Origin: Oceanobacillus damuensis
GTDB lineage: Bacteria > Bacillota > Bacilli > Bacillales > Amphibacillaceae
NCBI RefSeq assembly: GCF_001618145.1
Contig: NZ_KV392042.1
Location: 62,001-126,000, forward strand
Length of the DNA stretch: 64,000 nt
Direction: 5' to 3'
Shown here: one piece after another, positions 43,582 through 60,454 of the stretch
How positions within the stretch are numbered: position 1 is the first letter of the stretch
Layout of the letters: each line of letters begins with the position of its first letter
Notes under the pieces: model-generated
Told to the model about the DNA's origin: nothing
Database searches by the model: none
Seen by the model: the letters and a program-made list of their open reading frames with translations, nothing else
Position numbers and translations under genes: made by a program

Positions 43582-45804
43582 ATGAAGTATTTTAGAGGGG
43601 AATATTTAATTAAAATGCTTCTCATACTTGGTGGAAGCGTGGTCTTCATATTTTTATTAGTGTTTTTTTCTTTTTATATCAAAACAGCTAATTATCTTGA
43701 AAGAGAAGCTATAGATAATAGTGTTGAAATTATTAATCAAGTCAAAGATCGGTTACAGAATGAGTTGAATCAAGTTGAAAAGAGAGCAACAGAAATCGTA
43801 TTAAACCAAGATGTAATAGAATCAATTTATGACAGAGAATTAGAAAATAATAACGAAAAAATATTTTCAATTTCAAAAAGTTTAAATCAATTTTCTCAGA
43901 CAATTAATCAAATACAAAGTGTAGAATTATTTATTCCAGGGTCATCATTATTAATTTCTACTGCAAATGGTGTAGATACATTAGATAAGTTTTCTGATAA
44001 TAAAAGGCAATTTTATCAAACAGTTGAAGCTTTGAGAAAAACAACTTGGAATATTAATAGCGTAAATAATACTATTTCTTATGTTCAACCATTACCTGTT
44101 ATATCAAACTTTCCACAAGGATATTTCACTATAAATTTAAACCAAGCTTTTCTTACAGAAAGTTTAGAGTCTTATTATTTAGTTGAAGAATCAAATTATC
44201 AAATTATCAAGTCAAACGGAAATGTCCTTTTTCATAAAAAAGAAGAAAATGCTAGTCTCTTTGTCGACAATACACAATTCCTATCCATGCTTAACCACAC
44301 GGATCCAGTTGGATTCCTAATAGACGAAAGAAACCAAGTTATCCTTTTCCACGCAAAAATCCATTCGGGTGAATGGTTAATATTATATGAAGTCCCATTT
44401 GAATCATTGTTCTATAAAAAAAATGACTTTATGCAAAGTTTAAATTTAACCGCTTTGATCGTACTATTAATAGCGTTGTTGGTGGTATTCTGTGCATCTA
44501 TCTATCTTTATTCTCCTTTAAGACAATTGGTAAAAGGATTAAGTGTTAAAAAGCGCAAGGGTTTAATAAAGGAATGGGCTCTCTTAGCTTCAACAATTAG
44601 TAATATGAATGAAAAGGTAAAAAACATAAATAAAGAACTTATAGAAAGTCGAAAATATAATTTCGAAGCATTTTTAAGTAAATGGTTATTTACTGATTTA
44701 AATGTTAATGAGTTAAACAATTACCTTGATGAAGTAGGAATAGATCCATCATACAACTATATTGTTTTGGTTATAGAATATGAAAAGGTTGAGAAAGACT
44801 CAGTTTTTCTAGTTCATGAAAAAGCGGGTGACGTTATCTCTGGTTGTTTAAGTCAATATAATTTGTATCCGTTCTTTCTTCCATTGCAGGAACGATTAGT
44901 AGTGCTGTTACCGATACCTAAAAGAGAAAAGCATATTCAAGATAAGCAAAAACTCATTGACCTTGTTAATACGGCACACCAAGTAATCAACAAACATCTA
45001 AAAATACAAAGTTCAATTGGAATAGGGACTTTAACAGAAAGTGCGGATGAGATTAAAACTTCTTTTTTGAATGCAGAAGAGGCATTAAGATTTAGGTTAA
45101 ATAAAGGAATGAACCAGGTTATTAGTTATGATGAAATGCAATATACCAAATTCCTAATTTATCCTTATCATATAGAAGAATCAATACTTAAAGGAGTAAA
45201 AAACAATAATCAAGAAATCGCTCTTACTGAGTTAAATAATTTTATCAAATTTATTAGGAAGCAAACTTATAATTATAAGTCAATCTATCATGCATTTACG
45301 ATGTTATATATTTCTTTGTATCGTATTTTAGATGAAAATTGTAAAGATGATAAAGTGAAAATAAAACATGATTTCCATAATCAATTATTCGAAAAGAAAA
45401 CATTAAATGATATTAAGAAAATGTTTGAAAAGGATATCTTACCTGGTTTTTTTGATAAAATTATGGAACAAAGTGAGAATAGTGGAGTAAATACGATTAA
45501 TTCGGTAAAAAGGTTCCTTATGGACAATGTTACTGAGCCATTAACATTAGGGGAAGTTGCTAATCACTTTGATATAAATCCTAGCTATTTAAGCCGGTTA
45601 TTTAAGAAGCTAACAGGTCAAAGTTTCGTTGAATATTTTTCAGCAATAAAAATCGAAAAATCGAAAGACATGCTTAAAAATACAAAATATTCAATTTACG
45701 AAATAGCTGAAAACGTTGGATATACTGAAAGAACCTTTGGCCGTGTTTTTAAAAAGGTTACGGGTGTAACTCCTTCAAATTATAGATTAGAACGTAAAGG
45801 TTAA
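43582..45804 (+). CDS. Membrane-bound AraC-family regulator with extracellular sensor
   Basis: A 740-residue one-protein sensor-regulator. Helix 1 (LLILGGSVVFIFLLVFFSFY, about 12-32) and helix 2 (LTALIVLLIALLVVFCASIY, about 293-312) bracket a 260-residue extracellular sensor that looks like a Cache domain. A linker and a degenerate nucleotide-cyclase-like region (about 380-500) follow. The C-terminus is an AraC double helix-turn-helix: LTLGEVANHFDINPSYLSRL, then YSIYEIAENVGYTERTFGRV. Relatives regulate polysaccharide or peptide uptake operons. It lies upstream of the peptidase/ABC transporter operon in the same direction, separated by an IS21 remnant, and is the natural candidate activator. 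Confidence 0.87.
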   Translation: MKYFRGEYLIKMLLILGGSVVFIFLLVFFSFYIKTANYLEREAIDNSVEIINQVKDRLQNELNQVEKRATEIVLNQDVIESIYDRELENNNEKIFSISKSLNQFSQTINQIQSVELFIPGSSLLISTANGVDTLDKFSDNKRQFYQTVEALRKTTWNINSVNNTISYVQPLPVISNFPQGYFTINLNQAFLTESLESYYLVEESNYQIIKSNGNVLFHKKEENASLFVDNTQFLSMLNHTDPVGFLIDERNQVILFHAKIHSGEWLILYEVPFESLFYKKNDFMQSLNLTALIVLLIALLVVFCASIYLYSPLRQLVKGLSVKKRKGLIKEWALLASTISNMNEKVKNINKELIESRKYNFEAFLSKWLFTDLNVNELNNYLDEVGIDPSYNYIVLVIEYEKVEKDSVFLVHEKAGDVISGCLSQYNLYPFFLPLQERLVVLLPIPKREKHIQDKQKLIDLVNTAHQVINKHLKIQSSIGIGTLTESADEIKTSFLNAEEALRFRLNKGMNQVISYDEMQYTKFLIYPYHIEESILKGVKNNNQEIALTELNNFIKFIRKQTYNYKSIYHAFTMLYISLYRILDENCKDDKVKIKHDFHNQLFEKKTLNDIKKMFEKDILPGFFDKIMEQSENSGVNTINSVKRFLMDNVTEPLTLGEVANHFDINPSYLSRLFKKLTGQSFVEYFSAIKIEKSKDMLKNTKYSIYEIAENVGYTERTFGRVFKKVTGVTPSNYRLERKG

Positions 45805-45883
45805 GAAATTAATCTTTATTTGCAGAAATGACAGGGTTGTTTGATTTAAAGACGTTATATATTTAAATAAAAGAGACGGCTAA

Positions 45884-46694
45884 TGATTACAGCCACTGAA
45901 ATTTACCACCTCTGCCATATTATTTACCACAGAATGACGAGGAATTTACCAACGATTGCCAAACTGTTTACCAGTTCAAACCTCCTATATAATTAGTGAA
46001 CACACCTATGGTGGTGTGACACTTTTAAATAGGAGGTTTTTTGTTTGATACATTATCGAAAGATTTTGGAATTACATCATAACAAAATCAGTCTAGGAGA
46101 AATCACCGTATGTACGGGTAGTTCTCGTCCGAAGGTGATTACAGCCAACCGATTGAACCAGTTATGCCATCTTTTGGATGCACCTGTGACAAGAAAATGA
46201 GCCAATTAAGACAAAGGTGATCCACTCACTAGAATATAACACTATCTTAACCACAGCTTTAGCTGCTTGCCCTTGACCGACGTGCCACTTCTAAGTTCCG
46301 CTGGAAGGGGACGGGGCTCCACCAGCGGAACTTAGAAGTGATTGTCCGTGGTACGCTGCTAATGCGGATGGAGCCCTATAAGCTGTTTTATCGCCATCCG
46401 CCATCCAAACCACTACCATGGACACAAACAAGGTCAAGGGTGGTGGGATTGTTGCTATAACAGCATCAAGTATACTGACTCTCTCTATGGGCAACGGTGG
46501 CTCAAAATTGTTTCATAAGTGGATCAAAAACATGGCAAGACTGGATTAACTTCATGGCAATATTCTTAACTTTTACTTTGCATTAAACAACTTCTACATA
46601 TTTATGGTAAATACATTGGCAATCGATGGTATATTTTGTGGCACTTTGTGGTAAATAACATGTCAAGAGTGGTAAATTCTGATGGCAGTATTCA
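45884..46694. mobile_element. Internally deleted IS21-family element with intact ends and target duplication
   Basis: The outer ~89 bases at each end align as inverted repeats (left TGATTACAGCCACTGAAATT; right, read inward, TGAATACTGCCATCAGAATT), with the IS21-typical repeated TTTACCA words. The element is flanked by GGCTAA on both sides (45878-45883 and 46695-46700), a 6-bp target duplication. Inside are a short istA start and a 19-bp perfect inverted repeat (46286-46304 with 46322-46340), but no complete istA or istB. At 811 bp it is a non-autonomous derivative of a roughly 2.5-kb IS21-type element. Confidence 0.9.
46045..46200 (+). pseudogene. istA fragment of the IS21 remnant
   Basis: TTG 46045 behind AGGAGG starts (M)IHYRKILELHHNKISLGEI, then TVCTGSSRPKVI, the N-terminal helix-turn-helix of IS21 transposase IstA. 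After about 31 codons the similarity is lost and the frame ends at 46200 (..LDAPVTRK). All catalytic parts are missing. Confidence 0.8.
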
Positions 46695-46700
46695 GGCTAA

Positions 46701-47107
46701 AAGTAAAGTGCTGAATTTTAGCCGTTTATTTGGTGAATTTTTCTAAACGAGAACTCCTTACATCAAATACCATAATTCTTCCAGTTTGCTCTTGGTCATG
46801 TATTAATGAATTGATTATAGATAAAATAAAATTTAAATTATAGCTTCAAGCCCCAAGAATATTCCCCGTCATTTTTTTACTCTGTAATAAATATTCAGTA
46901 AAATAATGGCGGGTTTATCTCATTAAGATTCTCAATTTTAAAGGAATTAAAGTTAGAAAATTATATTCTGAAAATTTAAGTAAATTATTGACAGTTGATG
47001 ACATAAAAAAAGACATATACCATTAGTTCAAGGTTGATGGCGCCATTACACCTCATATGCAAATTATAAAATGAAACCGATTTCAAGATGTGGAGGAGGT
47101 GTGGGGA
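46701..47107. other. Leader region of the peptide-utilisation operon
   Basis: No gene. An imperfect hairpin (CCCGTCATTTTTTTA with TAAAATAATGGCGGG, about 46867-46915) lies upstream. TTGACA at 46988-46993 with CATATA about 20 bases on may be the promoter, and the cre box at 47072 precedes the first gene. Confidence 0.5.
47072..47085 (+). promoter_or_regulatory. Perfect cre box (CcpA site)
   Basis: TGAAACCGATTTCA matches the cre consensus TGWAANCGNTNWCA at every fixed position and is a near-perfect palindrome. It lies between a possible promoter (TTGACA at 46988) and the ribosome-binding site of the M20 gene, where CcpA would block transcription of the whole operon. Confidence 0.8.
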
Positions 47108-48316
47108 ATGAATGAACTTTTATATAAAACAAAAAAAATGGATTTGGAGGTAAGGAGGTGGAGAAGAACTTTACATCAATATCCAGAATTGGGATTTGAA
47201 GAATTCAATACTTCTAACTTTATCTTAAGAAAGTTGAACGAATTCAATATCAATAATGTGAAACGAATTGCAGGTACGGGTCTAGTTGGGTTGATTAAAG
47301 GAAAAAAGGAAGGTCCTACCATCCTATTACGAGCTGATATCGATGGATTACCTATTAATGATGAAAAGAAAGTGAATTATGCTTCCAAAGTAAATGGTAA
47401 AGCTCATCTTTGTGGACATGATGCACATACGTCCATTTTACTGTGTGCTCTTAAGGTAATTAAAGATCATGGTATTGAAAGAGGTAATGTGAAGTTTATT
47501 TTTCAGCCAGCGGAAGAGGGATTAGCTGGAGCAAAAAAAGTAATCGAAGAAGGTGTTTTAGAGAATCCTAAGGTTGATACAGCTGTCGGATTACATGTAT
47601 ATCCAAATGAAAAAACAGGGAGAGTTGCAATTTGCCCGGGTCCTTGCACATCTTTTTCAGATAGGTTCAATCTTACAATAATTGGAAAAGGAGGGCACGC
47701 TGCTCATCCACATATGGCTGTTGACGCGTTAGCTATTGGATCGATCATTGTAAATGCATTACAACAAGTCGTAAGTCGTCAAATTGATCCTCTTAGTCCT
47801 AGTGTTCTAACAATCGGAAAGATAAGTGGTGGTTCAGCCTACAATGCTATAGCGTCGTCTGTAACATTAGAGGGTACTGTAAGATTGCTAGATGAGAGTT
47901 TGAGGTATGAAGTAAAACAGAAAATTGAGGATATAGTAAGGGGAATATGCAGCAGTTTCGATGCTACATTTGAACTTAACTATCATCATGGCTATCCTTC
48001 TGTTGTAAATGATGAGGCACTAATACCGAAATTTAAACAAACAGTCAGCCAAATTTTAGGAGAAGATAGTTTCTCGATTATAAATCCATCGATGGGTGGA
48101 GAAGATTTTTCATATTATACGCAAAAGGTTCCGGGCTTATTTTTTAGACTTGGTACAAGATGTAATGAAGAAACATCTTATCCTCTTCATCATCCAAAGT
48201 TTGATATAGACGAAGAAGCACTTTCGCTAGGAGCTGCATTACTATCACAATATGCTTTGAATTTCTTGCATCATCATGATAGTCATCGAGACGAAAAAAT
48301 AAATTTAATTAATTAA
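47108..48316 (+). CDS. M20-family amidohydrolase/aminoacylase
   Basis: A 402-residue metal-dependent amidohydrolase of the M20D type (N-acyl-amino-acid, hippurate or IAA-amino-acid hydrolases). Landmarks: LHQYPELGFEEFNTSNF, LLRADIDGLPI, the metal ligands in HLCGHDAHTSI (Cys, His), FIFQPAEEG (Glu-Glu), GLHVYP, the dimer-domain segment GKGGHAAHPHMAVDAL, and GGEDFSYY near the end. ATG 47108 stands 7 bases after GGAGGAGGTG; an earlier in-frame start lies on that site. It is the first gene of the operon and probably releases amino acids from imported N-acyl or gamma-linked compounds. Confidence 0.88.
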   Translation: MNELLYKTKKMDLEVRRWRRTLHQYPELGFEEFNTSNFILRKLNEFNINNVKRIAGTGLVGLIKGKKEGPTILLRADIDGLPINDEKKVNYASKVNGKAHLCGHDAHTSILLCALKVIKDHGIERGNVKFIFQPAEEGLAGAKKVIEEGVLENPKVDTAVGLHVYPNEKTGRVAICPGPCTSFSDRFNLTIIGKGGHAAHPHMAVDALAIGSIIVNALQQVVSRQIDPLSPSVLTIGKISGGSAYNAIASSVTLEGTVRLLDESLRYEVKQKIEDIVRGICSSFDATFELNYHHGYPSVVNDEALIPKFKQTVSQILGEDSFSIINPSMGGEDFSYYTQKVPGLFFRLGTRCNEETSYPLHHPKFDIDEEALSLGAALLSQYALNFLHHHDSHRDEKINLIN

Positions 48317-48329
48317 TAGGGGGAGTACA

Positions 48330-49922
48330 ATGTTGAAATCTATAAAGGTTTTTACACTCATATTTCTAGTAGTTGTATTAGTTGCATGTAATGGAGGGCA
48401 AAGTTCAACCTCTACCTCTAGTGGTAGTACAAATGAAGAAGCTGGACAAAATAGTAATGAAGTGGAAGAAAGTAATAATGAGGAAGATCGGACACTAGTA
48501 ATTGGTATTCCTACTGATATTAAATCCTTTGACATCCATGACCATAACCAAATCATCACAGAAGCTGTCCATATTAATATTTTCAGTTACTTACTTAAAC
48601 GTGATAAGGAGATGGAGGTTCAACCTGACCTTGTAAAAGACTATAAAGTCATAGACGATGAGGTTTGGGAGTTTGATTTAAAAGAAGGAGTTACTTTCCA
48701 TAATGGAGATGTTTTAACTGCTAATGACGTTAAATTTACATTAGAAAGAGTTGCCAAGGATGAAGCGTTAACGGAACATTCTAGATTGAAAGTCATTAAG
48801 GAAGTAAAGGTGTTAGATGACCATAAATTTCAGATCATTACTGATGGCCCTCAACCAACGTTAATCAATCTTCTTTCACGCATTGGGTCTGGGATACTGC
48901 CACAAAAATATATTGAAGAGAATGGTTGGGACCATTTCTTAAGCAATCCGATTGGCTCAGGTGCCTTTAAGTTTGTAGAATGGCGCCGAGATGATCGTAT
49001 CATTTTAGAACCATACGAAAATTATTATGGAGGAAATATCCAAGATGTTGACCAGGTTGTATTCAGAGTTGTCCCTGAAGTAATGACTCGTATTAATGAG
49101 CTTATAACAGGAGGTGTTGACATAGTTACTGACTTAACCCCTGACGATATAACAAGAATAGAGGATGCTGAGGGAGTTTCAGCAACATCTGCTCCATCCC
49201 AACGTGTAGCTTTATTAGGGATACAACATAGAGAAGGTTATGTCACTTCTGATCCTAAAGTGCGTGAAGCCATAGAGTTAGCTATTGATAATGAAGCAAT
49301 TACAGAGCACGTGTTAAAAGGAGAGGCAACACCTACTCGAACGAGAGTTACTCCGGGAAATTTTGGTTCAAACCCGGATTTATTCAATACACAACTATAT
49401 GATATTGAAAGAGCAAAACAGTTGTTACAAGAAGCAGGGTACCCAAATGGTGTAGATATTACTCTTACAGTTCCAAGTGACCGTTATTTAAAGTCAAAAG
49501 AAGTAAATGAAACAATTGCCGCTATGCTAAAGCAAGCTGGAATTAATGTGAATGTTCAATTTGTTGAATATAGCCGTTTTGTTGAAATGCGTAATACTGG
49601 TGATTTTGGAGATCTATATTTCGCAGCTTATGGTAACTCATTATTTGATGGTTCAATTGCTCTTGAGGAATTTGCTACAGAAACAGGAAAAGAGCGTGCA
49701 GGATATGAAAATCAAGAAATAGCCGATTTATGGAATGAAGCCCATACAAATATGAACACTCAAGTTCGAAGCAAGCAATATCAAAAAATACAAGAAATTG
49801 TAGCAGAGGAGAGACCTCACCTATATCTATATCTACAAAATGAAGTATACGGGACTAGTGATAAGGTGAATTTTACTCCTAGAACTGACAGTATGATTGT
49901 CATCGAAGATTTTATTCAATAA
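48330..49922 (+). CDS. Oligopeptide ABC transporter substrate-binding lipoprotein
   Basis: A 530-residue SBP_bac_5 family (DppE/OppA-like) protein. The signal MLKSIKVFTLIFLVVVLVAC ends in a lipobox Cys and is followed by a Ser/Thr/Glu-rich linker (about 22-50). Family landmarks: VWEFDLKEGVTFHNGDVLTA, SNPIGSGAFKFVEW and VREAIELAIDNEAI. It captures di- or oligopeptides, or other amide-linked compounds, at the outer face of the membrane. It follows the M20 gene by 13 bases and is followed by a strong hairpin that could keep its mRNA level above that of the permeases. Confidence 0.9.
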   Translation: MLKSIKVFTLIFLVVVLVACNGGQSSTSTSSGSTNEEAGQNSNEVEESNNEEDRTLVIGIPTDIKSFDIHDHNQIITEAVHINIFSYLLKRDKEMEVQPDLVKDYKVIDDEVWEFDLKEGVTFHNGDVLTANDVKFTLERVAKDEALTEHSRLKVIKEVKVLDDHKFQIITDGPQPTLINLLSRIGSGILPQKYIEENGWDHFLSNPIGSGAFKFVEWRRDDRIILEPYENYYGGNIQDVDQVVFRVVPEVMTRINELITGGVDIVTDLTPDDITRIEDAEGVSATSAPSQRVALLGIQHREGYVTSDPKVREAIELAIDNEAITEHVLKGEATPTRTRVTPGNFGSNPDLFNTQLYDIERAKQLLQEAGYPNGVDITLTVPSDRYLKSKEVNETIAAMLKQAGINVNVQFVEYSRFVEMRNTGDFGDLYFAAYGNSLFDGSIALEEFATETGKERAGYENQEIADLWNEAHTNMNTQVRSKQYQKIQEIVAEERPHLYLYLQNEVYGTSDKVNFTPRTDSMIVIEDFIQ

Positions 49923-49937
49923 TTATTTCATAATTTA

Positions 49938-49969: not shown

Positions 49970-49992
49970 CAAATATTCTAAAAAGGTGGTGA

Positions 49993-50913
49993 ATGTATTT
50001 GACTTACATTATTAGAAGGTTATTTCAAGTTATCCCAGTCTTAATTATTGTTTCTTTTTTAGTCTTTCTATTTGTCTATCTTTCAGGGGATCCTGTCGCC
50101 TTAATGTTACCGGAAGATGCATCACAAGCAGAAATTGAAAACATGCGTAAAGTGCTGGGACTCGATAAACCATTCATCGTACAATATGGTATTTTTCTTT
50201 TAAATGCGGTAAACGGAGATTTTGGTCAATCGTTTATATACAAACAAGAAGCACTAGGAATTGTATTAGAACGATTGCCAGCTACCTTTGAACTAATGAT
50301 TGCATCGATTATTGTTTCTACGATTATTGCGATTCCATTAGGGGTGTGGTCAGCGATTAGAAGAAATACATTTGTCGATTTGTTTATTAGTAGCTCATCT
50401 ATATTAGGTAAGGCAATGCCAAACTTTTGGTTGGGGATGATGCTGGTATTATTGTTTTCAGTTACATTGCAACTGTTACCGGTATCTGGAAAAGGTACTA
50501 TATATCACTTGATATTGCCAGCAATTACAGCAGGAACAGCCATGGCAGCTCAATTAACTAGAATGTTACGTTCGCATATGATAGAAGTACTTAGTCAAGA
50601 TTATATTCGAACAGCCCGTAGTAAGGGGTTAGGAAGTTTTGTGATCATTTTTAAACACGCATTAAGAAATTCTATGTTGCCTGTTATAACGATCATCGCA
50701 CTCCAAATTTCTACATTAGTTGGTGGTGCACTTATAACAGAGACAGTGTTTTCTTGGCCTGGTTTAGGGCAATTAATTATACAAGCAATACATGCAAGAG
50801 ATATGGCAGTAGTTCAAGCATGTGTCCTTGTAATCGCTGTATTTGTTATAGTAGTAAATCTGTTAGCGGACCTATTATACCGGGTTGTAGATCCTAGAAT
50901 TAAGTACAATTAG
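49993..50913 (+). CDS. Peptide ABC transporter permease, DppB/OppB type
   Basis: A 306-residue, six-helix permease. Typical start MYLTYIIRRLFQVIPVL, GDFGQSFIYKQEAL, and the EAA loop RSHMIEVLSQDYIRTARSKG before the C-terminal helices; TETVFSWPGLGQLIIQAI is a family signature. AAAGGTGG precedes the ATG. It pairs with the next gene to form the membrane channel. Confidence 0.92.
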   Translation: MYLTYIIRRLFQVIPVLIIVSFLVFLFVYLSGDPVALMLPEDASQAEIENMRKVLGLDKPFIVQYGIFLLNAVNGDFGQSFIYKQEALGIVLERLPATFELMIASIIVSTIIAIPLGVWSAIRRNTFVDLFISSSSILGKAMPNFWLGMMLVLLFSVTLQLLPVSGKGTIYHLILPAITAGTAMAAQLTRMLRSHMIEVLSQDYIRTARSKGLGSFVIIFKHALRNSMLPVITIIALQISTLVGGALITETVFSWPGLGQLIIQAIHARDMAVVQACVLVIAVFVIVVNLLADLLYRVVDPRIKYN

Positions 50914-50926
50914 GGAAGGTGCACAA

Positions 50927-51799
50927 ATGTTCATTAACTTATCTAAAAGGAAAACCCTCATGAAATGGGTAAAAATGTTACTTGTAAGTAAAGTAGGTTT
51001 AATAGGAGTTATTATAATCATACTTTTTACATTTACAGCGATATTCGCTCCTTTGATTGTTCCTCATGATCCTACTGAGGTGAATCTTGGAAAGAGTTCT
51101 TTACCACCCATTTGGTTAGACGGAGGAGAAAGTACTTATCTATTGGGTACTGATAATTTGGGTAGAGATGTTTTTAGTAGAATCATTTATGGCTCACAAA
51201 TTTCTATGCTTGTTGGTGTGTGTTCAGTTTTGGTTGCTGGGCTAATTGGGATACCAGTAGGGTTAATCTCTGGTTACTATGGTGGTTTGGTAGACAGCTT
51301 ACTAATGAGAATAGTAGATTCCCAAATTGCTATTCCCAGTATACTATTAGCTCTTGTAATTCTTGGCTTTATGAACCCAACATTACTAACTATTATTTTT
51401 GTAATTGGTGTATCAAGTTGGATCGCCTACGCAAGAGTGGTACGAAGTGAAGTATTAAGCTTAAAAGAAAGGGAATATGTTAAAGCGGCTAAGACAATGG
51501 GAGTAAGGCATTCATTTATTATGACGAGACATTTGCTGCCAAATGTATTTTCGTCAATCATTGTCATATCGACGATAAATGTAGCGACAAGTATTATTAC
51601 AGAATCATCTTTAAGCTTCTTGGGTCTGGGTCCTCAAAGTATATCTTGGGGTTCGATTTTAAGTGAAGGTAGAGATTATCTCGCCACTAATTGGTGGGTT
51701 GCAACATTTCCTGGAATTGCAATAACAGTAACGGTATTAGGTATTATATTATTTGGGGATTGGCTACGTGATGTGCTGGACCCACGTACTGAAGTGTAA
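50927..51799 (+). CDS. Peptide ABC transporter permease, DppC/OppC type
   Basis: A 290-residue permease with a family N-terminal helix, LLGTDNLGRDVFSRIIYGSQ, the EAA loop RSEVLSLKEREYVKAAKTMG, and ESSLSFLGLGPQSISWG. It begins 13 bases after the DppB-type gene. The 120-residue stretch between its first and second helices is periplasm-facing, as in other OppC proteins. Confidence 0.92.
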   Translation: MFINLSKRKTLMKWVKMLLVSKVGLIGVIIIILFTFTAIFAPLIVPHDPTEVNLGKSSLPPIWLDGGESTYLLGTDNLGRDVFSRIIYGSQISMLVGVCSVLVAGLIGIPVGLISGYYGGLVDSLLMRIVDSQIAIPSILLALVILGFMNPTLLTIIFVIGVSSWIAYARVVRSEVLSLKEREYVKAAKTMGVRHSFIMTRHLLPNVFSSIIVISTINVATSIITESSLSFLGLGPQSISWGSILSEGRDYLATNWWVATFPGIAITVTVLGIILFGDWLRDVLDPRTEV

Positions 51800-51889: not shown

Positions 51890-52876
51890 GTGAGCAAGTT
51901 ATTACAGATAAATAATTTAAAAACTGTATTTTATACAGAGGAAGGTCAAGTTCCATCGGTTGATAATGTTTCACTAGACATAAAAAAAGGAGAAACAGTC
52001 GCAATTGTAGGAGAGTCGGGGAGTGGTAAAAGCGTTACGGCTTTATCCATCTTGGGTTTAGTGCCGTCCCCAGGGAGAGTCGTAACTGGAGAAATCCTAT
52101 ATGAAGGTAAAGATTTGCTTAAAATGACTGATAAAGAGATAAAAAAGATTAGAGGAAACGAAATATCTATGATATTTCAAGAGCCCTTATCTGCCTTAAA
52201 CCCTGTCCTTACTGTGGGGAAACAAATTCAGGAAAGTATCGAGCTACATCAAAAAAAGAAAGGAAAACGAGCAAAAGAAAAGGTAATCCAACTTTTAAAC
52301 AGAGTAGGTATCCCAAGACCTGAAAAAGTCTACTACTCTTATCCCCATACGCTCAGTGGAGGAATGAGACAAAGAGTTATGATTGCAATGGCTTTATCGT
52401 GCCGGCCAAAATTAATTATAGCAGATGAACCTACTACTGCCTTAGATGTTACTACTCAAGCACAAATACTAAACCTCATGAAGTCACTAAGTGAAGAAGA
52501 AGGAACCACGATATTAATAATTACACATGATCTAGGAGTAGTGGCAGAGATGGCTGATCGTGTGGTTGTTATGTACGCTGGCCAAGTGGTTGAACAGTCA
52601 ACGGTATATGATCTTTTTGAGAAACCGGAACATCCTTATACAAAAGGTTTACTTGATTGCACACCAAAGATTCATGGTGAGTCCGAAGAGCTGCTTGCGA
52701 TAGAAGGAACGGTACCGACTATACAAAATAGACCTACAGGATGTAAATTTCATCCTCGATGTAAATTCACACATGAAAAATGTAAAGAAAAAGATCCAGA
52801 GCTATTTACAATAAAGGAAAAACAAAAAGTGCGCTGTTATCTTCATGAGAAAGTAATAGAGGAGAGATTAAAATGA
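51890..52876 (+). CDS. Peptide ABC transporter ATPase, DppD/OppD type
   Basis: A 328-residue ATPase. Walker A GESGSGKSVTALS, Q-loop MIFQEPLSALNPVL, signature LSGGMRQRVMIAMAL, Walker B LIIADEPTTALDV and H-loop ITHD are all intact. The C-terminus has the Opp/Dpp Cys-rich motif (GCKFHPRCKFTHEKC), which in homologues binds an Fe-S cluster. Start is GTG 51890 behind AAGGAGG. It overlaps the next gene by four bases. Confidence 0.92.
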   Translation: MSKLLQINNLKTVFYTEEGQVPSVDNVSLDIKKGETVAIVGESGSGKSVTALSILGLVPSPGRVVTGEILYEGKDLLKMTDKEIKKIRGNEISMIFQEPLSALNPVLTVGKQIQESIELHQKKKGKRAKEKVIQLLNRVGIPRPEKVYYSYPHTLSGGMRQRVMIAMALSCRPKLIIADEPTTALDVTTQAQILNLMKSLSEEEGTTILIITHDLGVVAEMADRVVVMYAGQVVEQSTVYDLFEKPEHPYTKGLLDCTPKIHGESEELLAIEGTVPTIQNRPTGCKFHPRCKFTHEKCKEKDPELFTIKEKQKVRCYLHEKVIEERLK

Positions 52877-53904
52877 ATGATTTAATTAGAAAGAATGATG
52901 AAATATTGTTGGAATTAAAGAATGTTAAAAAATATTACGATATTTCGAATTCATTTTTAAAGAATAAATCCTATCTTAAAGCAGTTGATGATATAAGTCT
53001 TCGTGTACGAAAGGGGGAGACGATTGGTATAGTTGGCGAATCTGGGTGCGGGAAATCTACGCTGGGCAACCTTATCATGCAAATGCTTCCGCTAACAGAA
53101 GGCCAGATTTTATTTGAGGGCGAGGATATGAGTAATTTATCGGCAAATCAATTAAGAAAAAAAAGGTTAGATTTCCAAATGATCTTTCAAGATCCTTTCT
53201 CTTCATTAAATCCACGTATGAAGGTACTCGATATTATAGCAGAGCCTTTGAGAACATACCGAATTGCAAAAGGTGAGGAGCTTGAAAACAAGGTTTATAG
53301 TTTGATGGATTTAGTAGGGCTCAATAAAAGTCAGGCATACCGATACCCGCATGAATTTAGTGGAGGACAGCGTCAAAGAATTGGTATAGCACGGGCATTA
53401 GCGCTAAATCCAAAACTAATTGTATGTGATGAACCTATCTCCGCATTGGATGTCTCCATTCAGGCTCAGATATTAAATTTATTATCAAATCTTCAAAAGA
53501 AACTGGGCTTAACCTACATTTTTATCGGTCATGGTATACCGGCAGTCAAATATATCAGTGACAGAATTGCGGTTATGTATATGGGGAAGATTGTAGAAAT
53601 TGCCGATAAAAATGAAATTGTTAAAAACCCTAAACATCCTTATACAGAAGCATTGCTATCAGCTATACCTGTACCAGACCCAAAATTAAGGGGTAACAAA
53701 AAACAGACGGTTATAGAAGGGGATGTTCCTAACCCAGTAAATCCTCCTAGCGGTTGTCGTTTTCATACTCGATGTCTTTATGCTGAGGAAAAGTGTAAAA
53801 GAGAAGAGCCTCAAATGAAAAGGTTACACTCGTACCACCAATTTGCATGTCATTATCCTATTAACCATCAAGGAGGTAAAGAGTTTGAAAACGGAACTGC
53901 TTAA
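52873..53904 (+). CDS. Peptide ABC transporter ATPase, DppF/OppF type
   Basis: A 343-residue ATPase partner of the DppD-type subunit. Walker A GESGCGKSTLGNL, Q-loop MIFQDPFSSLNPRM, signature FSGGQRQRIGIARAL, Walker B LIVCDEPISALDV, and a Cys motif (GCRFHTRCLYAEEKC). The H-loop reads FIGHGIPAVKYIS where most family members have HDLxxV: His is kept but the following Asp is Gly, a minor oddity. Its start overlaps the upstream stop as ATGA, and its own end overlaps the following enzyme gene by 20 bases. Confidence 0.91.
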   Translation: MNDLIRKNDEILLELKNVKKYYDISNSFLKNKSYLKAVDDISLRVRKGETIGIVGESGCGKSTLGNLIMQMLPLTEGQILFEGEDMSNLSANQLRKKRLDFQMIFQDPFSSLNPRMKVLDIIAEPLRTYRIAKGEELENKVYSLMDLVGLNKSQAYRYPHEFSGGQRQRIGIARALALNPKLIVCDEPISALDVSIQAQILNLLSNLQKKLGLTYIFIGHGIPAVKYISDRIAVMYMGKIVEIADKNEIVKNPKHPYTEALLSAIPVPDPKLRGNKKQTVIEGDVPNPVNPPSGCRFHTRCLYAEEKCKREEPQMKRLHSYHQFACHYPINHQGGKEFENGTA

Positions 53905-54583
53905 GTCCATCGCTAGTGCCTATGAAAGTCAATTCGCACTTAATGATTATAAAGGAAATATATTAGCTAAGCATTCTTATGAAAAAAGCTTTGGCTCTAT
54001 TCCAATTTTGTTATCTATGCCCCACAGTGTAGCTCAAATGCGGAATGGAAAATTAAAAGATTCAGATGATTATACTGGAGCAATTGGTTTATTTACCCAA
54101 AAACTTTTAGACTGTCATTGTATATATTCAACCAGAACATCTGAGGAAGATCCTAATTACGTGATCGAAGGGAAATATAAGATAGAGTTAGAGAAAATCA
54201 TAAAGAAAGGCAATATTAAGTTTGTGATAGATCTACATGGAGCATCGTCAAAAAGAAACTTTGATATAGATTTAGGAACTATTCATGGAAAAACAATGAG
54301 TAGCAATACTATTAATGAAATCAAAGAGATTTTCAGTAACAATGGCATCATGAATGTTCTTGAGAATGAAATGTTTGCAGCGACACATAAAGGGACGATA
54401 ACCTCATTTGTACATCATGAATTGAAGGTACCTTGTTTCCAAATGGAGATCAATAAAAAATTTAGAGATCCGTTAAATCGAATTGATTCATTTAAAATTT
54501 TAATAGCATCACTGGTTGATATGATTCATTATTTAAATTCTTATCATATCAATGATTTAAATGGTACTTCACATGAGAATTAA
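53885..54583 (+). CDS. N-formylglutamate amidohydrolase-like protein
   Basis: A 232-residue protein of the N-formylglutamate amidohydrolase (FGase) superfamily of zinc hydrolases. ILLSMPHSVAQMRNGKLKDS holds the first metal-type His, KFVIDLHGASSKRNFDID the second (DLHG motif), and TSFVHHELKVPCFQMEINKK the late family motif (QxE). TTG 53885 is the start because AAGGAGG lies 8 bases before it, inside the end of the DppF-type gene; a frame opening at 53843 has no site. In this operon it could deacylate N-acyl-glutamate or split a gamma-glutamyl product. Related hydrolases also degrade poly-gamma-glutamate. Confidence 0.8.
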   Translation: MKTELLKSIASAYESQFALNDYKGNILAKHSYEKSFGSIPILLSMPHSVAQMRNGKLKDSDDYTGAIGLFTQKLLDCHCIYSTRTSEEDPNYVIEGKYKIELEKIIKKGNIKFVIDLHGASSKRNFDIDLGTIHGKTMSSNTINEIKEIFSNNGIMNVLENEMFAATHKGTITSFVHHELKVPCFQMEINKKFRDPLNRIDSFKILIASLVDMIHYLNSYHINDLNGTSHEN

Positions 54584-56075
54584 CCATAAAAAAAAATGGT
54601 GTGGGGTTAGTGCAGCACATCCAAAGGCTGTTGACGTTGGTGTTGAAATTTTGAGAAAAGGGGGAAATGCCGTTGATGCAGCAATTGCTGTTTCTTATAC
54701 GCTAGGGGTTGTGGAACCTTATGCATCAGGTATAGGGGGAGGAGGGGTAATGCTTATTCATTCTGTAAATGACAAACCGATATTTTATGATTATCGGGAA
54801 ATGGCCCCTATATCTGGTGAAACTAGTAAAAGCATTGGGATACCTGGTTTTGTTTTAGGGATGGAGACGATACATTCGGAGAGAGGAACATACCCATTTG
54901 ATCAACTTATTGAACCTTCCATTCTGGTAGCTGAGGAAGGATTTGAACTAAATGATATCCTCCATAGTAGACTGCAAGAAGCAAAACACTTATCTAAAAT
55001 AAAACTACAGCAATTCTATTCTGATGAAACTCCTCATCCAATTGGCAGCATTATAAAACAAAAAAAATTAGCTTTAACGTTAAAGAAGATTAAAAGACAT
55101 GGTTCAGAGTGGTTTTATAAAGGACCAATAGCAAAGGAAATTCATAACCTTATCAACGGGCAGGAAGTTTCTGATATTTACAAATATAAAGTAATAAAAA
55201 GGGAACCTGTTGTTGGTAGGTTTTTGGAATTTGAAGTTATATCAGCTCCTCCTCCCCTTGCTGGCGTTACGTTGATTCAGGCTTTACATATGGTTGAAAA
55301 AATGAAGTTGCATGAACATGCAGATGCTAGTTTTGAATTTATTTTAGGGTTAAGTCAGATAATGCAAAGGGTACATTTAGACCGCTTAAGTACAATGGGT
55401 GATCCGGATTTTGTTGACATTGATGCTTCAAAAATAATTAGCAGTGACTATATTGAGAATATGTTTTACGAGATTTATAAAACCCCTTTTGAAGTAGCCT
55501 CATCAAAAGAGAATAATGATTTTAACAATACTACCCATTTTACTGTGGTAGATAGAGATGGAATGATGGTTTCCGTTACGAATACAATCAGCGACTTTTT
55601 TGGTTGTGGTGAAAACATAGCAGGTTTCTTCCTTAACAATCAAATGAGAAATTTTACCAAAACGTCATCTTCACCAAATGTCATTAAACCCGGAAAACGC
55701 CCACATAGCAACATAGCGCCAACAATATTATGCCATAATAACAAACCTTTTCTTACAATTGGGTCAGCCGGAGGAAAAAGAATACCAACTATGCTGACTA
55801 GGATATTATTAAGGACATTGCAAAATAACTGGTCGCTTGAAAAGGCAGTAAAGAAGCCAAGAATTTTTGCCCATGACTACACTTTGTATTTGGAAGAGGA
55901 TATAGATAGCCAAATCAAAAGTAGATTAACCAAGAATGGTTATAACGTAAAGTATCATCCAATTAATATATTTTACGGTGGTGTTCATGGATTAATGTTC
56001 GTAGATGAAGATAATGAATTAATCGGGGTCGCCGATCCGAGGAGAGGAGGCACCTCCGAAACATTGAAAATTTAA
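54561..56075 (+). CDS. Gamma-glutamyltranspeptidase family protein, cytoplasmic
   Basis: A 504-residue Ntn-hydrolase of the gamma-glutamyltranspeptidase family. The large-subunit part has AVDVGVEILRKGGNAVDAAI and YASGIGGGGVMLIHS. The self-cleavage site and nucleophilic Thr are in FNNTTHFTVVDRDGMMVSVT (about residue 324). The late conserved PGKRPHSNIAPTI and GSAGGKRIPTML are present. There is no signal peptide, unlike Bacillus Ggt, so it should act on imported gamma-glutamyl compounds. Overlapping the upstream gene, its start is either ATG 54561 or ATG 54573; neither has a clear ribosome-binding site, implying translational coupling. Confidence 0.88.
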   Translation: MVLHMRINHKKKWCGVSAAHPKAVDVGVEILRKGGNAVDAAIAVSYTLGVVEPYASGIGGGGVMLIHSVNDKPIFYDYREMAPISGETSKSIGIPGFVLGMETIHSERGTYPFDQLIEPSILVAEEGFELNDILHSRLQEAKHLSKIKLQQFYSDETPHPIGSIIKQKKLALTLKKIKRHGSEWFYKGPIAKEIHNLINGQEVSDIYKYKVIKREPVVGRFLEFEVISAPPPLAGVTLIQALHMVEKMKLHEHADASFEFILGLSQIMQRVHLDRLSTMGDPDFVDIDASKIISSDYIENMFYEIYKTPFEVASSKENNDFNNTTHFTVVDRDGMMVSVTNTISDFFGCGENIAGFFLNNQMRNFTKTSSSPNVIKPGKRPHSNIAPTILCHNNKPFLTIGSAGGKRIPTMLTRILLRTLQNNWSLEKAVKKPRIFAHDYTLYLEEDIDSQIKSRLTKNGYNVKYHPINIFYGGVHGLMFVDEDNELIGVADPRRGGTSETLKI

Positions 56076-56218: not shown

Positions 56219-58651
56219 ATGAAGATTAGAAATGTCTTAAATTTTATCGGTATAGCGACTATTTGTTTGGTTTTGATTATGACATTGTTCCAACCTAAAG
56301 CGTGGGCTTCAAGTTCAGCAATTGCTACAGGGAATTCGACAACAGACGGTCGTCCAGTAGCATGGAAGAATAGAGATCATTGGTCGACAAGCGACGGGTG
56401 GAAAGTTATACCATACCACTATCAAGCTGATGGCAGCTCATTTGGAGCTGGGGATCGTTATTTATCAAGTTTCAATTACTCAGGTGTTTCAGCAATTGGA
56501 TCATCAGGAATTGATGAACATACAAGCATACAGATACCATGGGTTGGGGCAAATGACAGAGGGCTTGGACTCGTACAGGTTGCAGGGCATACTTTAACTT
56601 CAAGTTTTGCGGAAGATAATGGATTTCCAGTTTCACAGGATTTAGAAAATGGTATGAGAGCTGGCTACTTAAATCACATTATACTTTCTCGTGCTGAGCA
56701 TATTGATGATGTTGAACAAATATTAAGAGATACAAATGATGGTGGTGGCTTTAATGGAAGCTTTGCCAGAAATACTTCTACTATTATAAGTGTATTTGAT
56801 CGCTGGGGAAATGCAGCTACATTTGAGATTGATGGTGATAGTTTTACTCGTGATAATGTAACGGAAGAATATGCTCAAGATGCTAATGGATATTTCACGG
56901 CATTACATGATGATGATAAAGATACAACTAATCCGTTAGATGGTGAGTATAGTGGTTTTGATTGGAGAACTAATTTTTCAAAAGTTAATTGGACAAAATC
57001 AAATGGCTTTCCATATTTTGTTGATAATCAAGTTACAGATGTGGATGGTAATGGAAATATAACAAGTGAGGGTACAATTCCTGATGGTATACATGACTGG
57101 TCTTATTCATCAAGTGCTGTGAAACGATATCCAAGGGCAGGGATTCGTATGGATGACCCCCATTTAAAAGATTATCGCTACTTTATTCAGAAAGATGTTG
57201 GTTCATATGCATTAGGTGATAAAAATAGCATTGAAACCCTCTCAAGGAATATTGGGTATCTGCCTAGAGAGGAAAAGCCAACAGGTTGGCATTTAAATCG
57301 CTTTGTATCTACATTTGGAACTGTATTAGTTGGATCGAAAATCGATGATCCTTATGAAGGAAGATTAACTACGATTTGGGTAGCATTGGGAGAGCCAGCT
57401 GCGGGAATCTTTGTACCGATTTTTCCTTATGCAGGTGAGGTTCCTGAAGAACTAATGGATATGTACTCATCCATCAACGAAAAGCGTCGCCAAGTTTATG
57501 ACTATACGGATGATAACGCCTGTGGCTATAGTTGCGGAAGAAACTCGGACCATGATATTGATACTTATGCGTTAACAGGTGAATATTATGGTGAATCAGG
57601 TGTTATGAAATATACGTTTGATATTGAAAATTGGGCTTTTGATCAATATGATAACTTTATGACTGAGCTTAGGGATGGATCAAGAACACTCAATGAATTA
57701 AAAAGTGATATGATTCAGTGGCAAAAGGCAGTTGCACAGCAAATGAAAGAGTATTATGAAAGTGAAACAAGTATATTCCCAGCAGTTGAAGATGCTTATG
57801 TTCGTTCTGATAATCCTGATAGTAATTACAATAATTTCTTAAGTGTACAGCATGATGATCGTATATCTTATCTAAAATTCAATTTAAAAGGAGTTACAGG
57901 AAAACCAATTCAGTCTATTAAATTAAGACTCACGGAAAGTGACAATGGTTTGGCAGGTGATACAAATTTCTTTGTTACAAAGACAACTTCCTCTTGGAAT
58001 GAACAAACTGTTACTTGGAATACAAAGCCGAGTACAGATGGTAAAACATATGGGACATATAACGCGGGGCAGCTAAATGAAAATGAAGTGATTGACATCC
58101 CTCTAAATCCATCATTTATTGAACAAGGTGATGGAGAATATAGTATTGCCCTTGTCGGAAGTTCTGGTTCAATGGATGATGAATTTTCAATGAGGGAAAC
58201 ATTAAAAGGAGCAAAGATCATAGTGGAGTTTGGAGATCTCAATAATATTGAGCTTGATAATAGAGATGCAACGATGTACTCTGAATGGTCTAGTTCTAGT
58301 ACCCAGCCGAATTATTATGGTGATAATTATTTATATCGATCAACAAGTGGAACAGGAAAAGAAGTTGTATGGACACCGTATATTACAAATCCAGGGAACT
58401 ATGAAATATATTATTGGCTCCCAGACGGAACATCTAATAGAACAACAATGGCTCCATATACTATTAATTATTCTGGAGGATCCACAACGGTTTTTGTAGA
58501 CCAGACTGTATCTGGAGGACGGTGGGTTCAACTTGGTAATACAGCATATCCTTTTGAGGCAGGAATTCATGGTAACGTAGAATTGAGTAGCAGTGCATCG
58601 GATGGGAAGTATGTAATAGCTGATGCAGTTAAATTTGTAAAAGTAAATTAA
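56219..58651 (+). CDS. Secreted Ntn-hydrolase-like amidase with DNRLRE and golvesin-like domains
   Basis: An 810-residue exported protein. The signal peptide ends LFQPKAWA (residue 30). The mature start SSSAIATGNSTTDGRPVAWK, then NRD, resembles C45/C69/choloylglycine-hydrolase-type Ntn enzymes, which normally begin Cys-Thr/Ser; here only Ser is available (31-33). The hydrolase part runs to about 500. About 520-670 is a DNRLRE beta-sandwich (EDAYVRSDNPDSNYNNFLSV, SSWNEQTVTWNTKPSTDGKT) and 675-810 a golvesin-C/Xly-like module (NPGNYEIYYWLPDGTSNRTT), both typical of surface or polymer binding. Preceded by GGAGAGGGAGG. It probably frees substrates outside the cell for the importer. Confidence 0.82.
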   Translation: MKIRNVLNFIGIATICLVLIMTLFQPKAWASSSAIATGNSTTDGRPVAWKNRDHWSTSDGWKVIPYHYQADGSSFGAGDRYLSSFNYSGVSAIGSSGIDEHTSIQIPWVGANDRGLGLVQVAGHTLTSSFAEDNGFPVSQDLENGMRAGYLNHIILSRAEHIDDVEQILRDTNDGGGFNGSFARNTSTIISVFDRWGNAATFEIDGDSFTRDNVTEEYAQDANGYFTALHDDDKDTTNPLDGEYSGFDWRTNFSKVNWTKSNGFPYFVDNQVTDVDGNGNITSEGTIPDGIHDWSYSSSAVKRYPRAGIRMDDPHLKDYRYFIQKDVGSYALGDKNSIETLSRNIGYLPREEKPTGWHLNRFVSTFGTVLVGSKIDDPYEGRLTTIWVALGEPAAGIFVPIFPYAGEVPEELMDMYSSINEKRRQVYDYTDDNACGYSCGRNSDHDIDTYALTGEYYGESGVMKYTFDIENWAFDQYDNFMTELRDGSRTLNELKSDMIQWQKAVAQQMKEYYESETSIFPAVEDAYVRSDNPDSNYNNFLSVQHDDRISYLKFNLKGVTGKPIQSIKLRLTESDNGLAGDTNFFVTKTTSSWNEQTVTWNTKPSTDGKTYGTYNAGQLNENEVIDIPLNPSFIEQGDGEYSIALVGSSGSMDDEFSMRETLKGAKIIVEFGDLNNIELDNRDATMYSEWSSSSTQPNYYGDNYLYRSTSGTGKEVVWTPYITNPGNYEIYYWLPDGTSNRTTMAPYTINYSGGSTTVFVDQTVSGGRWVQLGNTAYPFEAGIHGNVELSSSASDGKYVIADAVKFVKVN

Positions 58652-58920: not shown

Positions 58921-59201
58921 AAATACAATCTAGAAGTGAAAGAAAGTTGTTTCAAAAAATTCATGAAGTTAAACCGTACTGTACTGGTAAAGTAATGAAT
59001 GTATATGTTACTCCCTCAACATATGTGTATGAATGGGAACCTTTATTCTCCGTAATGAATGGTGATGGTAAAATAACGGAAGTTTACTTAGGGGTAAGTG
59101 GAATTATAAAAGATATTAAAGTAACAGTAGGTGAACATGTATTCCATAATACCATACTAGCGAACATAGAAGATGATATGAAACTTTCTGGAAGTGATTA
59201 A
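58911..59201 (+). CDS. Small biotinyl/lipoyl-like domain protein
   Basis: A 96-residue protein from ATG 58911 (or 58896, 5 residues longer; neither has a good ribosome-binding site). It fits the biotinyl/lipoyl-attachment fold: GKVMNVYVTPSTYVYEWEPL, then the hairpin MNGDGKITEVYLGVSGIIKD and KVTVGEHVFHNTILANIED. The usual MKM attachment motif is replaced by NGDGK, so modification is uncertain. It begins inside the dehydrogenase fragment in another frame. It may be a carrier-like domain or a degenerate one. Confidence 0.55.
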   Translation: MGLKIQSRSERKLFQKIHEVKPYCTGKVMNVYVTPSTYVYEWEPLFSVMNGDGKITEVYLGVSGIIKDIKVTVGEHVFHNTILANIEDDMKLSGSD

Positions 59202-59241
59202 TTACAATTTTTAAAATTAGACTTTTATTTTGGAGGATAAT

Positions 59242-59415
59242 ATGACTGTTAAAGAACTATACATTAAGGTAGAGGAAAAGAGAAAAAAGATGTATGAAAT
59301 AGCAGCTGCCAAGGGGCTTACAAACATTGAAACAATTAACTGTAGTGTAGAGTTAGATGTCTTACTTAATCAATTAATCCTCCAAACAAAACAGGAATTG
59401 TATATCTGTTCTTGA
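59242..59415 (+). CDS. Spo0E-family aspartyl-phosphate phosphatase
   Basis: A 57-residue protein with the Spo0E/YisI/YnzD pattern: two helices, VEEKRKKMYEIAAAKGLTNI and ETINCSVELDVLLNQLI. The family's SxELD motif (S-V-E-L-D) supplies the residues that attack Spo0A-phosphate, so it should delay sporulation. GGAGG stands 5 bases before ATG 59242; a TTG at 59230 overlaps that site. It follows the relics of the peptide-utilisation cluster, and its presence implies an endospore former. Confidence 0.85.
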   Translation: MTVKELYIKVEEKRKKMYEIAAAKGLTNIETINCSVELDVLLNQLILQTKQELYICS

Positions 59416-59470
59416 CTGAATTAACATAGAACTGTACTTAAGTTGGTAGATATATCTTTGTTGATATGAA

Positions 59471-59706
59471 AGTGCTGCATTTAAATTATTTTTAAGAGTT
59501 GGTCAGGCCGCTAATAACCTGCATATATCGCAACGAGGGTTAAGTAAACAAATTATGCTCCTTTAAGAAGAACTAGGGAATAATCTCTTTGAGCGTTCTA
59601 CAAAACAGTTTACTAGAGGAGGGGGAAGGGGAATCTTTATATAAAAATATTCTCCCTTCTTTTAACAATATTGGAAGAGTGGTTGATGATGTGAAAGAAA
59701 CGGGTG
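59471..59706 (+). pseudogene. Relic of a LysR regulator N-terminus
   Basis: The frame ALKLF-like AAFKLFLRVGQAANNLHISQ, then RGLSKQIMLL, a TAA, EELGNNLFERSTKQFTR, and after a shift EGESLYKNILPSFNNIGRVV matches the LysR helix-turn-helix order (..AAxxLHISQxxLSxQIxxLEEELGxxLFER..). It has a small deletion, an in-frame stop and a frameshift, and the effector domain is missing. Confidence 0.7.
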
Positions 59707-59746
59707 CCATTCCGAAAAAGAAAATACGGCATTGGAGGAGAATTTT

Positions 59747-60454
59747 GTGAAGAAAATAATTGGAATTACGACAGATATTAAAAACGAAAAATTATTAACT
59801 ACAGGTTTGGATAACATTAAATCAATCGTTAAGTCAGGTGCAGTACCAGTCGTTTTACCGAACCTGGACGACGAAGATTCTATCAATCAACTAGCTGAAT
59901 TAATTGATGGATTACTTGTTACAGGTGGCGGCGATATTGACCCGACCCTTTTTGGAGAAGAACCACATCCTAATTTAGGTGAAATTTGTCCAGACAGAGA
60001 TCGTTTTGAAATGTTGCTAATTACTAAATTACTCGAATTGGATAAACCGATTTTAGCAATTTGTAGGGGATGCCAAATTTTAAATCTAGCAACGGGTGGT
60101 GATATGCATCAAGATATCTATGCTCAATCTCAAAGACCACTTTTACAACACTATCAAAAGGCACCACGAACACATACCTCCCATTACATTGACGTAACTG
60201 AGAACTCTTTTTATCAAAAAATTGTCCAAGCAACTCGTTTTAAAGTAAATAGCTATCATCACCAGGCTGTTCGAAAAATTGGAGATGGTTTTGAGGTATG
60301 TGCAAAATCAAGTGATGGTATAATTGAAGCTTTTGAAAGTAAAAAGCATCGATTTGTCATTGGTATTCAGTGGCATCCTGAGAATCTGTTCCAAAATGAG
60401 GATATTTTTTCCTTGATATTATTTAAATATTTCGTTTATTCAATTGACAATTAA
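59747..60454 (+). CDS. Gamma-glutamyl-gamma-aminobutyrate hydrolase family protein (peptidase C26)
   Basis: A 235-residue class I glutamine-amidotransferase-like hydrolase of the PuuD type. The nucleophile elbow AICRGCQILNLATGG carries the catalytic Cys, and the C-terminal GIQWHPE supplies His and Glu. LLVTGGGDIDPTLFGEEPHP and DRDRFEMLL are family marks. It cleaves gamma-glutamyl amides in the cytoplasm, fitting the transpeptidase and importer upstream. The GTG at 59747 lies 6 bases after GGAGGAG. It is separated from the main operon by relics and a spo0E gene but has the same direction. Confidence 0.9.
   Translation: MKKIIGITTDIKNEKLLTTGLDNIKSIVKSGAVPVVLPNLDDEDSINQLAELIDGLLVTGGGDIDPTLFGEEPHPNLGEICPDRDRFEMLLITKLLELDKPILAICRGCQILNLATGGDMHQDIYAQSQRPLLQHYQKAPRTHTSHYIDVTENSFYQKIVQATRFKVNSYHHQAVRKIGDGFEVCAKSSDGIIEAFESKKHRFVIGIQWHPENLFQNEDIFSLILFKYFVYSIDN

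Follow-up and report, generated by a model that had tools for sequence, protein, structure and literature searches.

A rare, conserved Bacillales operon that may import gamma-glutamyl oligomers and digest them in the cytosol

A 64,000-nt stretch of Oceanobacillus damuensis contig NZ_KV392042.1 was analysed here (the window; all coordinates are window positions), and the part studied, 43582-60454, carries a cluster whose core (43582-56075) comprises an AraC-type regulator, an M20 amidase, a five-gene Opp-type importer, an enzyme resembling N-formylglutamate amidohydrolase (FGase) and a homologue of gamma-glutamyltranspeptidase (GGT) without a signal peptide, followed by the gene for a secreted protein. 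These genes are genuine and together make up a conserved system, the boundary of which shifts. On balance, and by a modest degree, we favour the view that this system imports gamma-glutamyl oligomers, which most probably derive from poly-gamma-glutamate (gamma-PGA), and digests them in the cytosol. In the proposed scheme, a sensor-regulator would answer a signal from outside (an AraC-type protein in four loci and a sigma-54 activator in two more), the secreted enzyme, where present, would act outside the cell, and the Opp/Dpp-type ATP-binding cassette (ABC) importer would, in the predicted direction of transport, bring short gamma-glutamyl oligomers into the cell. Once these are in the cytosol, a signal-less CapD-type gamma-glutamyl hydrolase, an FGase-like metal-dependent amidase and the M20 amidohydrolase would yield glutamate from them, their order of action being likewise a prediction. 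The first-pass annotation, made from the sequence alone, had already suggested outside trimming, import and glutamate release from a gamma-linked polymer; the recurrence of the gene set, the CapD type of the GGT and the presence of FGase-like genes in cap operons support this proposal, and its N-acyl-glutamyl alternative is the less likely one.

The gene set is rare yet conserved, and it recurs more than chance would allow. Eight non-regulator core families (M20, solute-binding protein, two permeases, two ATPases, FGase-like enzyme and signal-less GGT) co-occur in five other loci, all in Bacillales (Metabacillus arenae L046, Alteribacillus L048, Salibacterium L049, Alkalihalobacillus L050 and genome G362, L149), where the M20 proteins are 54-57% and the importer proteins ~50-70% identical to those of the window. 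A reduced form in genome G018 has the importer, the signal-less GGT and an M14 peptidase gene, with M20 and the FGase-like enzyme absent from the stretch read; the M14-type gene (L029:11629-13233; PF00246, 43.3 bits) directly follows the GGT gene and perhaps replaces the FGase-like enzyme. Counting the window, six loci therefore have the eight-family core. Seven hold this transporter together with the signal-less GGT (the six whole-core loci and G018), and five of these encode the secreted protein. The other two lack it in the stretches read: G018, and G362, which encodes an AraC-type regulator and the whole core, with no secreted protein in 39 kb. The earlier annotation had named loss of gene order in related genomes as grounds for refutation and co-occurrence of the secreted protein with the other genes as a check. 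The gene set does recur in the five other loci, whereas its order varies; the secreted protein does join the transporter and the signal-less GGT in most cases, yet it also occurs in two actinobacteria without such an operon.

In single-sequence searches, 3 of the 159 genomes from the host's family held the FGase-like protein, and 2 of the 299 from its order held the secreted domain. In a class sample of 398 genomes, the secreted domain was confined to the host apart from two chance matches (L044 and L045, dropped as class-level homologues, their frames reading like type I restriction subunits); a match in G033, also rejected, covers residues 496-606 only and reaches into the CBM96 region. With a two-row profile, the domain was detected in 2 of the 29 genomes from the family of Salibacterium, and a profile of the FGase-like family matched 32 of 397 genomes, adding G362, which belongs to another family group. 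Genome contigs of 84,980 species were also scanned, with the scan restricted to genomes that contain either of two exact peptides; this gave seven loci with the secreted domain, four in Bacillales and three actinobacterial, one of the latter a fragment; all four Bacillales loci encode M20, the solute-binding protein, both permeases, both ATPases, the FGase-like enzyme, the signal-less GGT and the secreted protein. A first such scan with the FGase-like protein gave 74 pattern stretches, none of them confirmed. Because the occurrence is sporadic, we infer horizontal spread of the operon; plasmid origin was rejected, since neither the secreted domain nor the FGase-like protein had a match among 72,556 plasmid records.

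The GGT-like protein, which passes the TIGR00066 profile (Table 1), groups with CapD-type enzymes. In trees of 33 and 38 rows, six signal-less sequences formed one group (support 94/99 and 99/99). A 100/100 branch sets this group, with the CapD-type enzymes, apart from four canonical GGTs and, in the 38-row tree, from ten paralogues of 24-28% identity; L149 was left out of these trees, and L038, L061 and L062 are long branches in them. Genes of the capB and/or capC type adjoin the close CapD-type relatives in all 10 larger loci read (CapC in G011 confirmed by Pfam, the cap genes elsewhere assigned by sequence similarity). Of 18 short CapD-type loci, 14 have a match to CapB or CapC, and four show no cap gene in their flanks. 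A hydrophobic N-terminus is found in none of the seven signal-less rows versus 20 of 21 CapD-type rows (one unmeasured). Five of the seven signal-less proteins start 5 to 15 residues before the core, and the open reading frames (ORFs) of L046 and L048 have longer 5′ ends, still without a hydrophobic stretch. T324, in the putative nucleophile column, is kept in all 34 aligned rows, including the seven signal-less ones, and autoprocessing may occur. Position R407 is arginine in every signal-less row, arginine in 19 and lysine in 2 of 21 CapD-type rows, and threonine in 4 and arginine in 2 of 6 rows labelled GGT; this column may be that of Arg423 at the acceptor site of CapD, the mapping to human GGT and CapD numbering being an assumed one. 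Compared with E. coli GGT, the signal-less proteins show no lid-loop insertion, with a 22-residue loop in the five of seven rows caught by the pattern. A review links lid-loop absence and an open cleft to gamma-PGA hydrolysis and mentions that depolymerisation by CapD has been suggested to take place in the cytoplasm (PMC8062742). The GGT-like gene lies in an operon without cap genes, in a host genome without a CapC match. The enzyme may work like CapD but is not classed as CapD, as it has neither a capBCA operon nor a membrane anchor.

The FGase-like enzyme, for which no signal peptide was seen, scores just under the PF05013 cut-off (Table 1), which its G011 homologue reaches (29.2 bits). Its family is found in cap operons: in G011, capBC is followed by a gene for a membrane-anchored CapD-type protein and, immediately after that, by the FGase-like gene, and in G281 and G442 the FGase-like gene comes after capBCAD with one gene between, encoding a protein with eight NlpC/P60 repeats in G442 and a homologue of it in G281. 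H61, H132 and E202, candidates for zinc ligands and the catalytic glutamate, are invariant in all six FGase-like rows, at roughly the spacing of H41, H102 and E165 in the gamma-PGA hydrolase PghL, for which the nearest folds after PghP are FGase-type structures (PMC6506827). A PDB profile search with the family (seven rows, one incomplete) reached a best E value of 0.067, with unrelated chains and at chance level. Besides G011, 31 further FGase-like places were read: one is the G362 operon, two are the cap loci of G281 and G442, eleven lie beside two RimK-type ligases, two beside a Mur-type ligase, and 15 have none of these, three of them with a lone LysR, ABC-ATPase or FolC match. The FGase frame was missing from the ORF listing in L152 and L162. 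In the RimK-ligase loci (L164-L166, L168, L170-L175 and L178), the gene adjoins two RimK-type ATP-grasp ligases between apparent valS and folC; five of the eleven also hold a matching Mur-type ligase, most hold a ~620-residue protein of unknown family, and L164 has a CapA-like match beside the ligases. They are perhaps biosynthetic clusters for an amide-linked oligomer.

The importer has the full Opp/Dpp make-up claimed for it from the start, with an SBP_bac_5 protein, two permeases, two ATPases and oligo_HPY, as borne out by Pfam and homologues (ATPase D was run in Pfam, and ATPase F was assigned by homologues only). Its cargo could instead be small gamma-glutamyl or N-acyl-glutamyl compounds, such as gamma-glutamyl peptides, glutathione, N-acyl-glutamate or p-aminobenzoyl-oligoglutamate, with M20 as the main deacylase, a reading we consider unlikely. 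It would suit the M20 protein, which belongs to TIGR01891 and matches the structures of YxeP (261.6 bits) and N-alpha-acyl-glutamine aminoacylase (177.3 bits), as well as the solute-binding protein, whose best NCBIfam matches are NikA-type and then glutathione-binding GsiB (145 bits, cut-off 594), both under cut-off. However, the GGT is of the CapD rather than the canonical type, and the FGase-like family also occurs in cap operons.

The secreted protein consists of a signal peptide, a ~480-residue domain that begins SSSAIATG and, in the window copy, the CBM96 and Golvesin_C modules identified by Pfam. Five aligned homologues from two phyla are 61-72% identical to it, and in all six rows a small residue followed by SSS opens the mature part. 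Among six homologues, the ~480-residue domain had no Pfam match better than E 0.26; five of six members show a weak C45 similarity (best E 0.0033; 16.8 bits, cut-off 85). Profile comparison by hhalign with 15 C69 proteins gave E 0.006 at a probability of 6%, with S31 aligned on the cysteine, and with 15 C45 proteins E 0.29 over 18 columns; the C45 profile similarity and the C69 alignment, both weak, place the SSS at or next to the nucleophile of these enzymes. These comparisons weakly suggest an N-terminal-serine hydrolase. The PDB profile search with the family remained at chance level (best E 1.1), and two AlphaFold models were of low confidence (mean predicted local distance difference test scores 33.8 and 38.0). 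Of the 'secreted Ntn-type amidase' named in the earlier annotation, the two C-terminal modules have stood, whereas the N-terminal-nucleophile (Ntn) assignment is weakly supported, by the C45 resemblance, and is not confirmed. The Alkalihalobacillus gene (L050:9953-12421) is split into three pieces by two frameshifts, through real decay or an assembly error.

The modules invite a second alternative, somewhat less likely than the small compounds, in which the substrate would be a mixed polymer of gamma-glutamyl chains on polysaccharide, with the secreted protein cutting the amide at the sugar and its modules holding the glycan. CBM96 has been defined as alginate-binding (PMC9971899), a halophile exopolymer of gamma-PGA and carbohydrate is on record (PMC10897055), and two actinobacterial homologues lie in SBP_bac_1 transporter runs with sulfatases nearby. 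Against it, modules of this kind were seen in just two of seven homologues (the window and, as a matching tail, L050), the operon holds no glycosidase, and the two transporter loci noted above lack the secreted protein in the stretches read. The actinobacterial loci L051 and L047 both show sugar-type ABC runs, and Jiangella has in addition, upstream, genes for an Opp-type ATPase and an M19 dipeptidase. A third possibility, that the cell turns over gamma-PGA of its own making or recycles a signal peptide instead of scavenging, is highly improbable: CapC is present in two of the six genomes tested, but it was unmatched in the host, M. arenae, S. aidingense and G018, an importer with a secreted enzyme is a nutrient-uptake layout, and a host without CapC fits scavenging.

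Several observations weigh against gamma-PGA oligomers as the imported substrate. The M20 amidohydrolase subfamily is broadly active on N-acyl amino acids, and the solute-binding protein scores above cut-off for no curated transporter. As G281 and G442 belong to the same genus, the cap link amounts to two independent cases, and with 13 of the 31 places beside RimK- or Mur-type ligases and 15 without such neighbours, the FGase-like family is not specific to gamma-PGA operons; nor does its window member match PghP or solved FGases by sequence. The signal-less GGT set is small, and the trees place L061 and L062, labelled GGT, among the CapD-type rows, which means that not every row on that side is linked to capBC. 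In Jiangella and Nonomuraea, the secreted-protein gene is the last in a run of GntR and SBP_bac_1 transporter genes, with no such operon, and the GGT matches of these two actinobacteria are distant (best E 4e-34 and 5e-20). To these come the two genomes with CapC; the substrate and every enzymatic step are predictions from sequence.

Profile searches upheld the earlier assignments of AraC, M20, SBP_bac_5, both permeases, ABC_tran, GGT, Peptidase_C26, CBM96 and Golvesin_C, and all ORFs named sit at the claimed positions on the + strand (Table 1). The M20 ORF opens at GTG 47090, with a likely start at ATG 47108 behind GGAGGAGG. From M20 to GGT the genes are closely packed, the widest gaps being 70 bp (between the genes for the solute-binding protein and permease B) and 90 bp (between those for permease C and ATPase D), and 143 bp separate the GGT-like gene from that of the secreted protein. 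Most genes appear coupled, as had been proposed: the ATPase D and F genes share 4 bp; TTG 53885, where the FGase-like protein probably starts, lies within the ATPase F gene with GGAGG 5′ of it; and the FGase and GGT genes overlap by 23 bp.

Table 1. Features of the cluster in the O. damuensis window
Feature	Position	Strand	Evidence
AraC-type regulator (740 aa) with GGDEF_2-like part	43582..45804	+	HTH_18 67.6 bits, GGDEF_2 37.3 bits
Insertion-sequence remnant, not a functional part	45805..47089	.	1285 bp gap, degenerate frames
Exact cre-like site ahead of first enzyme gene	47071..47085	+	Pattern match
M20 amidohydrolase	47108..48316	+	PF01546 153 bits; TIGR01891 362 bits vs cut-off 153.75
Solute-binding lipoprotein, SBP_bac_5	48330..49922	+	PF00496 283.8 bits
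Permease B, Opp-type importer	49993..50913	+	PF00528 158 bits
Permease C, Opp-type importer	50927..51799	+	PF00528, OppC_N
ATPase D, Opp-type importer	51890..52876	+	ABC_tran, oligo_HPY
ATPase F, Opp-type importer	52873..53904	+	ORF; homologues 59-64% identical in 6/6 loci
FGase-like enzyme, 232 aa from likely TTG 53885	53885..54583	+	PF05013 26.0 bits, cut-off 28.9
Signal-less CapD-type GGT homologue, 504 aa, putative nucleophile T324	54561..56075	+	TIGR00066 365.3 bits, cut-off 357.85
Secreted protein: signal peptide (by reading), ~480-aa domain, then CBM96 and Golvesin_C	56219..58651	+	Pfam for modules

The AraC-type regulator carries a GGDEF_2 domain according to the Pfam profile search and probably a membrane sensor region. 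Such a gene also lies just upstream of M20 in L046, L050 and L149, which with the window makes four of the six whole-core loci. In the window, the 1285 bp between the two genes are read, from their frames, as a degenerate insertion-sequence remnant, which we presume to be of the IS21 type. L048 has a divergent sigma-54 activator gene, L049 a likely homologue at the same place, and a -24/-12-like site occurs once in each, 54 bp (L048) and 47 bp (L049) before M20; no such site was found within 300 bp before M20, on one strand, in L046, L050, L149 or the window. The sigma-54 activator gene of L046 lies downstream of the secreted-protein gene. The cluster had been called catabolite-controlled, a description that a single catabolite-responsive element (cre) before M20 supports weakly and does not confirm: the window holds three exact cre matches at two places against 1.12 expected, a number reached in 12 of 100 shuffles, and no exact cre lies within 400 bp before M20 in the five relatives, two of which (L049 and L149) have sites with one mismatch. 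The LysR and major facilitator superfamily (MFS) genes further upstream (40214-42622) have no homologues in the six loci and were ruled out as part of the system.

Downstream, Pfam upheld Peptidase_C26 for the gene at 59732-60454, ~1.1 kb beyond the secreted-protein gene. Its inclusion in the cluster was not borne out, and the gene was ruled out as a member, on account of this gap and of the absence of a C26 match from the fetched stretches of the five other whole-core loci; in G018, a C26 gene lies behind apparent thyA-dfrA, by reading. Ahead of it in the window are a small ORF with weak Biotin_lipoyl similarity (58896-59201; 16.8 bits, cut-off 22.1) and, at 59230-59735, a Spo0E-like ORF (PF09388, 48.8 bits) and, by reading, a LysR-like remnant. 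RNase J-like genes, also by reading, are present near the operon in the window (60863-62659) and ~11 kb from the cap/FGase operon of G011 (L026:2943-4604).

gamma-PGA is a major slime and capsule polymer of Bacillus, and accounts of its breakdown in the accessible literature mostly place it outside the cell. Bacillus isolates made up 25 of 35 gamma-PGA users in a rhizosphere study (PMC11937826), and feeding on hydrolase-released gamma-PGA oligomers has been proposed before, in a paper whose text does not contain the word 'transport' (PMC4497714). No import route for such oligomers was found in the literature by title, subscription journals being largely outside coverage. If correct, the cytosolic digestion proposed here would explain how non-producers feed on gamma-PGA, single out a transporter and a CapD-type enzyme without signal peptide as its agents, and suggest functions for the FGase-like family and for a conserved secreted family that matches no Pfam model; in type strains, growth on gamma-PGA oligomers should then depend on the operon. 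More tentative, and rather doubtful as a whole, is the fuller proposal that the oligomers are imported whole by a dedicated Opp-type transporter and digested by a cytosolic CapD-type enzyme that has lost its membrane anchor, with the help of a new family of secreted hydrolases, their N-terminal serine bared by signal peptidase, that would have moved between Bacillota and Actinomycetota.

Among known systems, the E. coli glutathione importer operon gsiABCD likewise sets an Opp-type importer beside an isopeptide-specific N-terminal-nucleophile enzyme, but its enzyme set is different and the present binding protein matches GsiB weakly. N-formylglutamate amidohydrolase and the PghP-type gamma-PGA hydrolases resemble the FGase-like enzyme through its weak profile match, FGase and PghL being neighbours in fold (PMC6506827), whereas the present protein stays under the FGase cut-off and reaches no PghP or FGase structure by sequence. 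YwrD is an intracellular member of the GGT family (PMC8062742); in contrast to the signal-less group, the 24-28% paralogues of the host and its relatives, taken as YwrD type in a tree that held no YwrD sequence itself, lie beyond the 100/100 branch. CapD of the capsule operons (GGT family, MEROPS T03) shares the clade, the threonine at the nucleophile place in all seven rows and the lack of a lid-loop insertion, while the present enzyme has no membrane anchor or signal peptide and sits in an importer operon without capBCA. The secreted GGT and PgdS route of gamma-PGA degradation in Bacillus probably concerns the same polymer and ends in glutamate too; its known enzymes, however, are secreted or at the surface (PMC4497714, PMC8062742), whereas here digestion would take place inside the cell after import.

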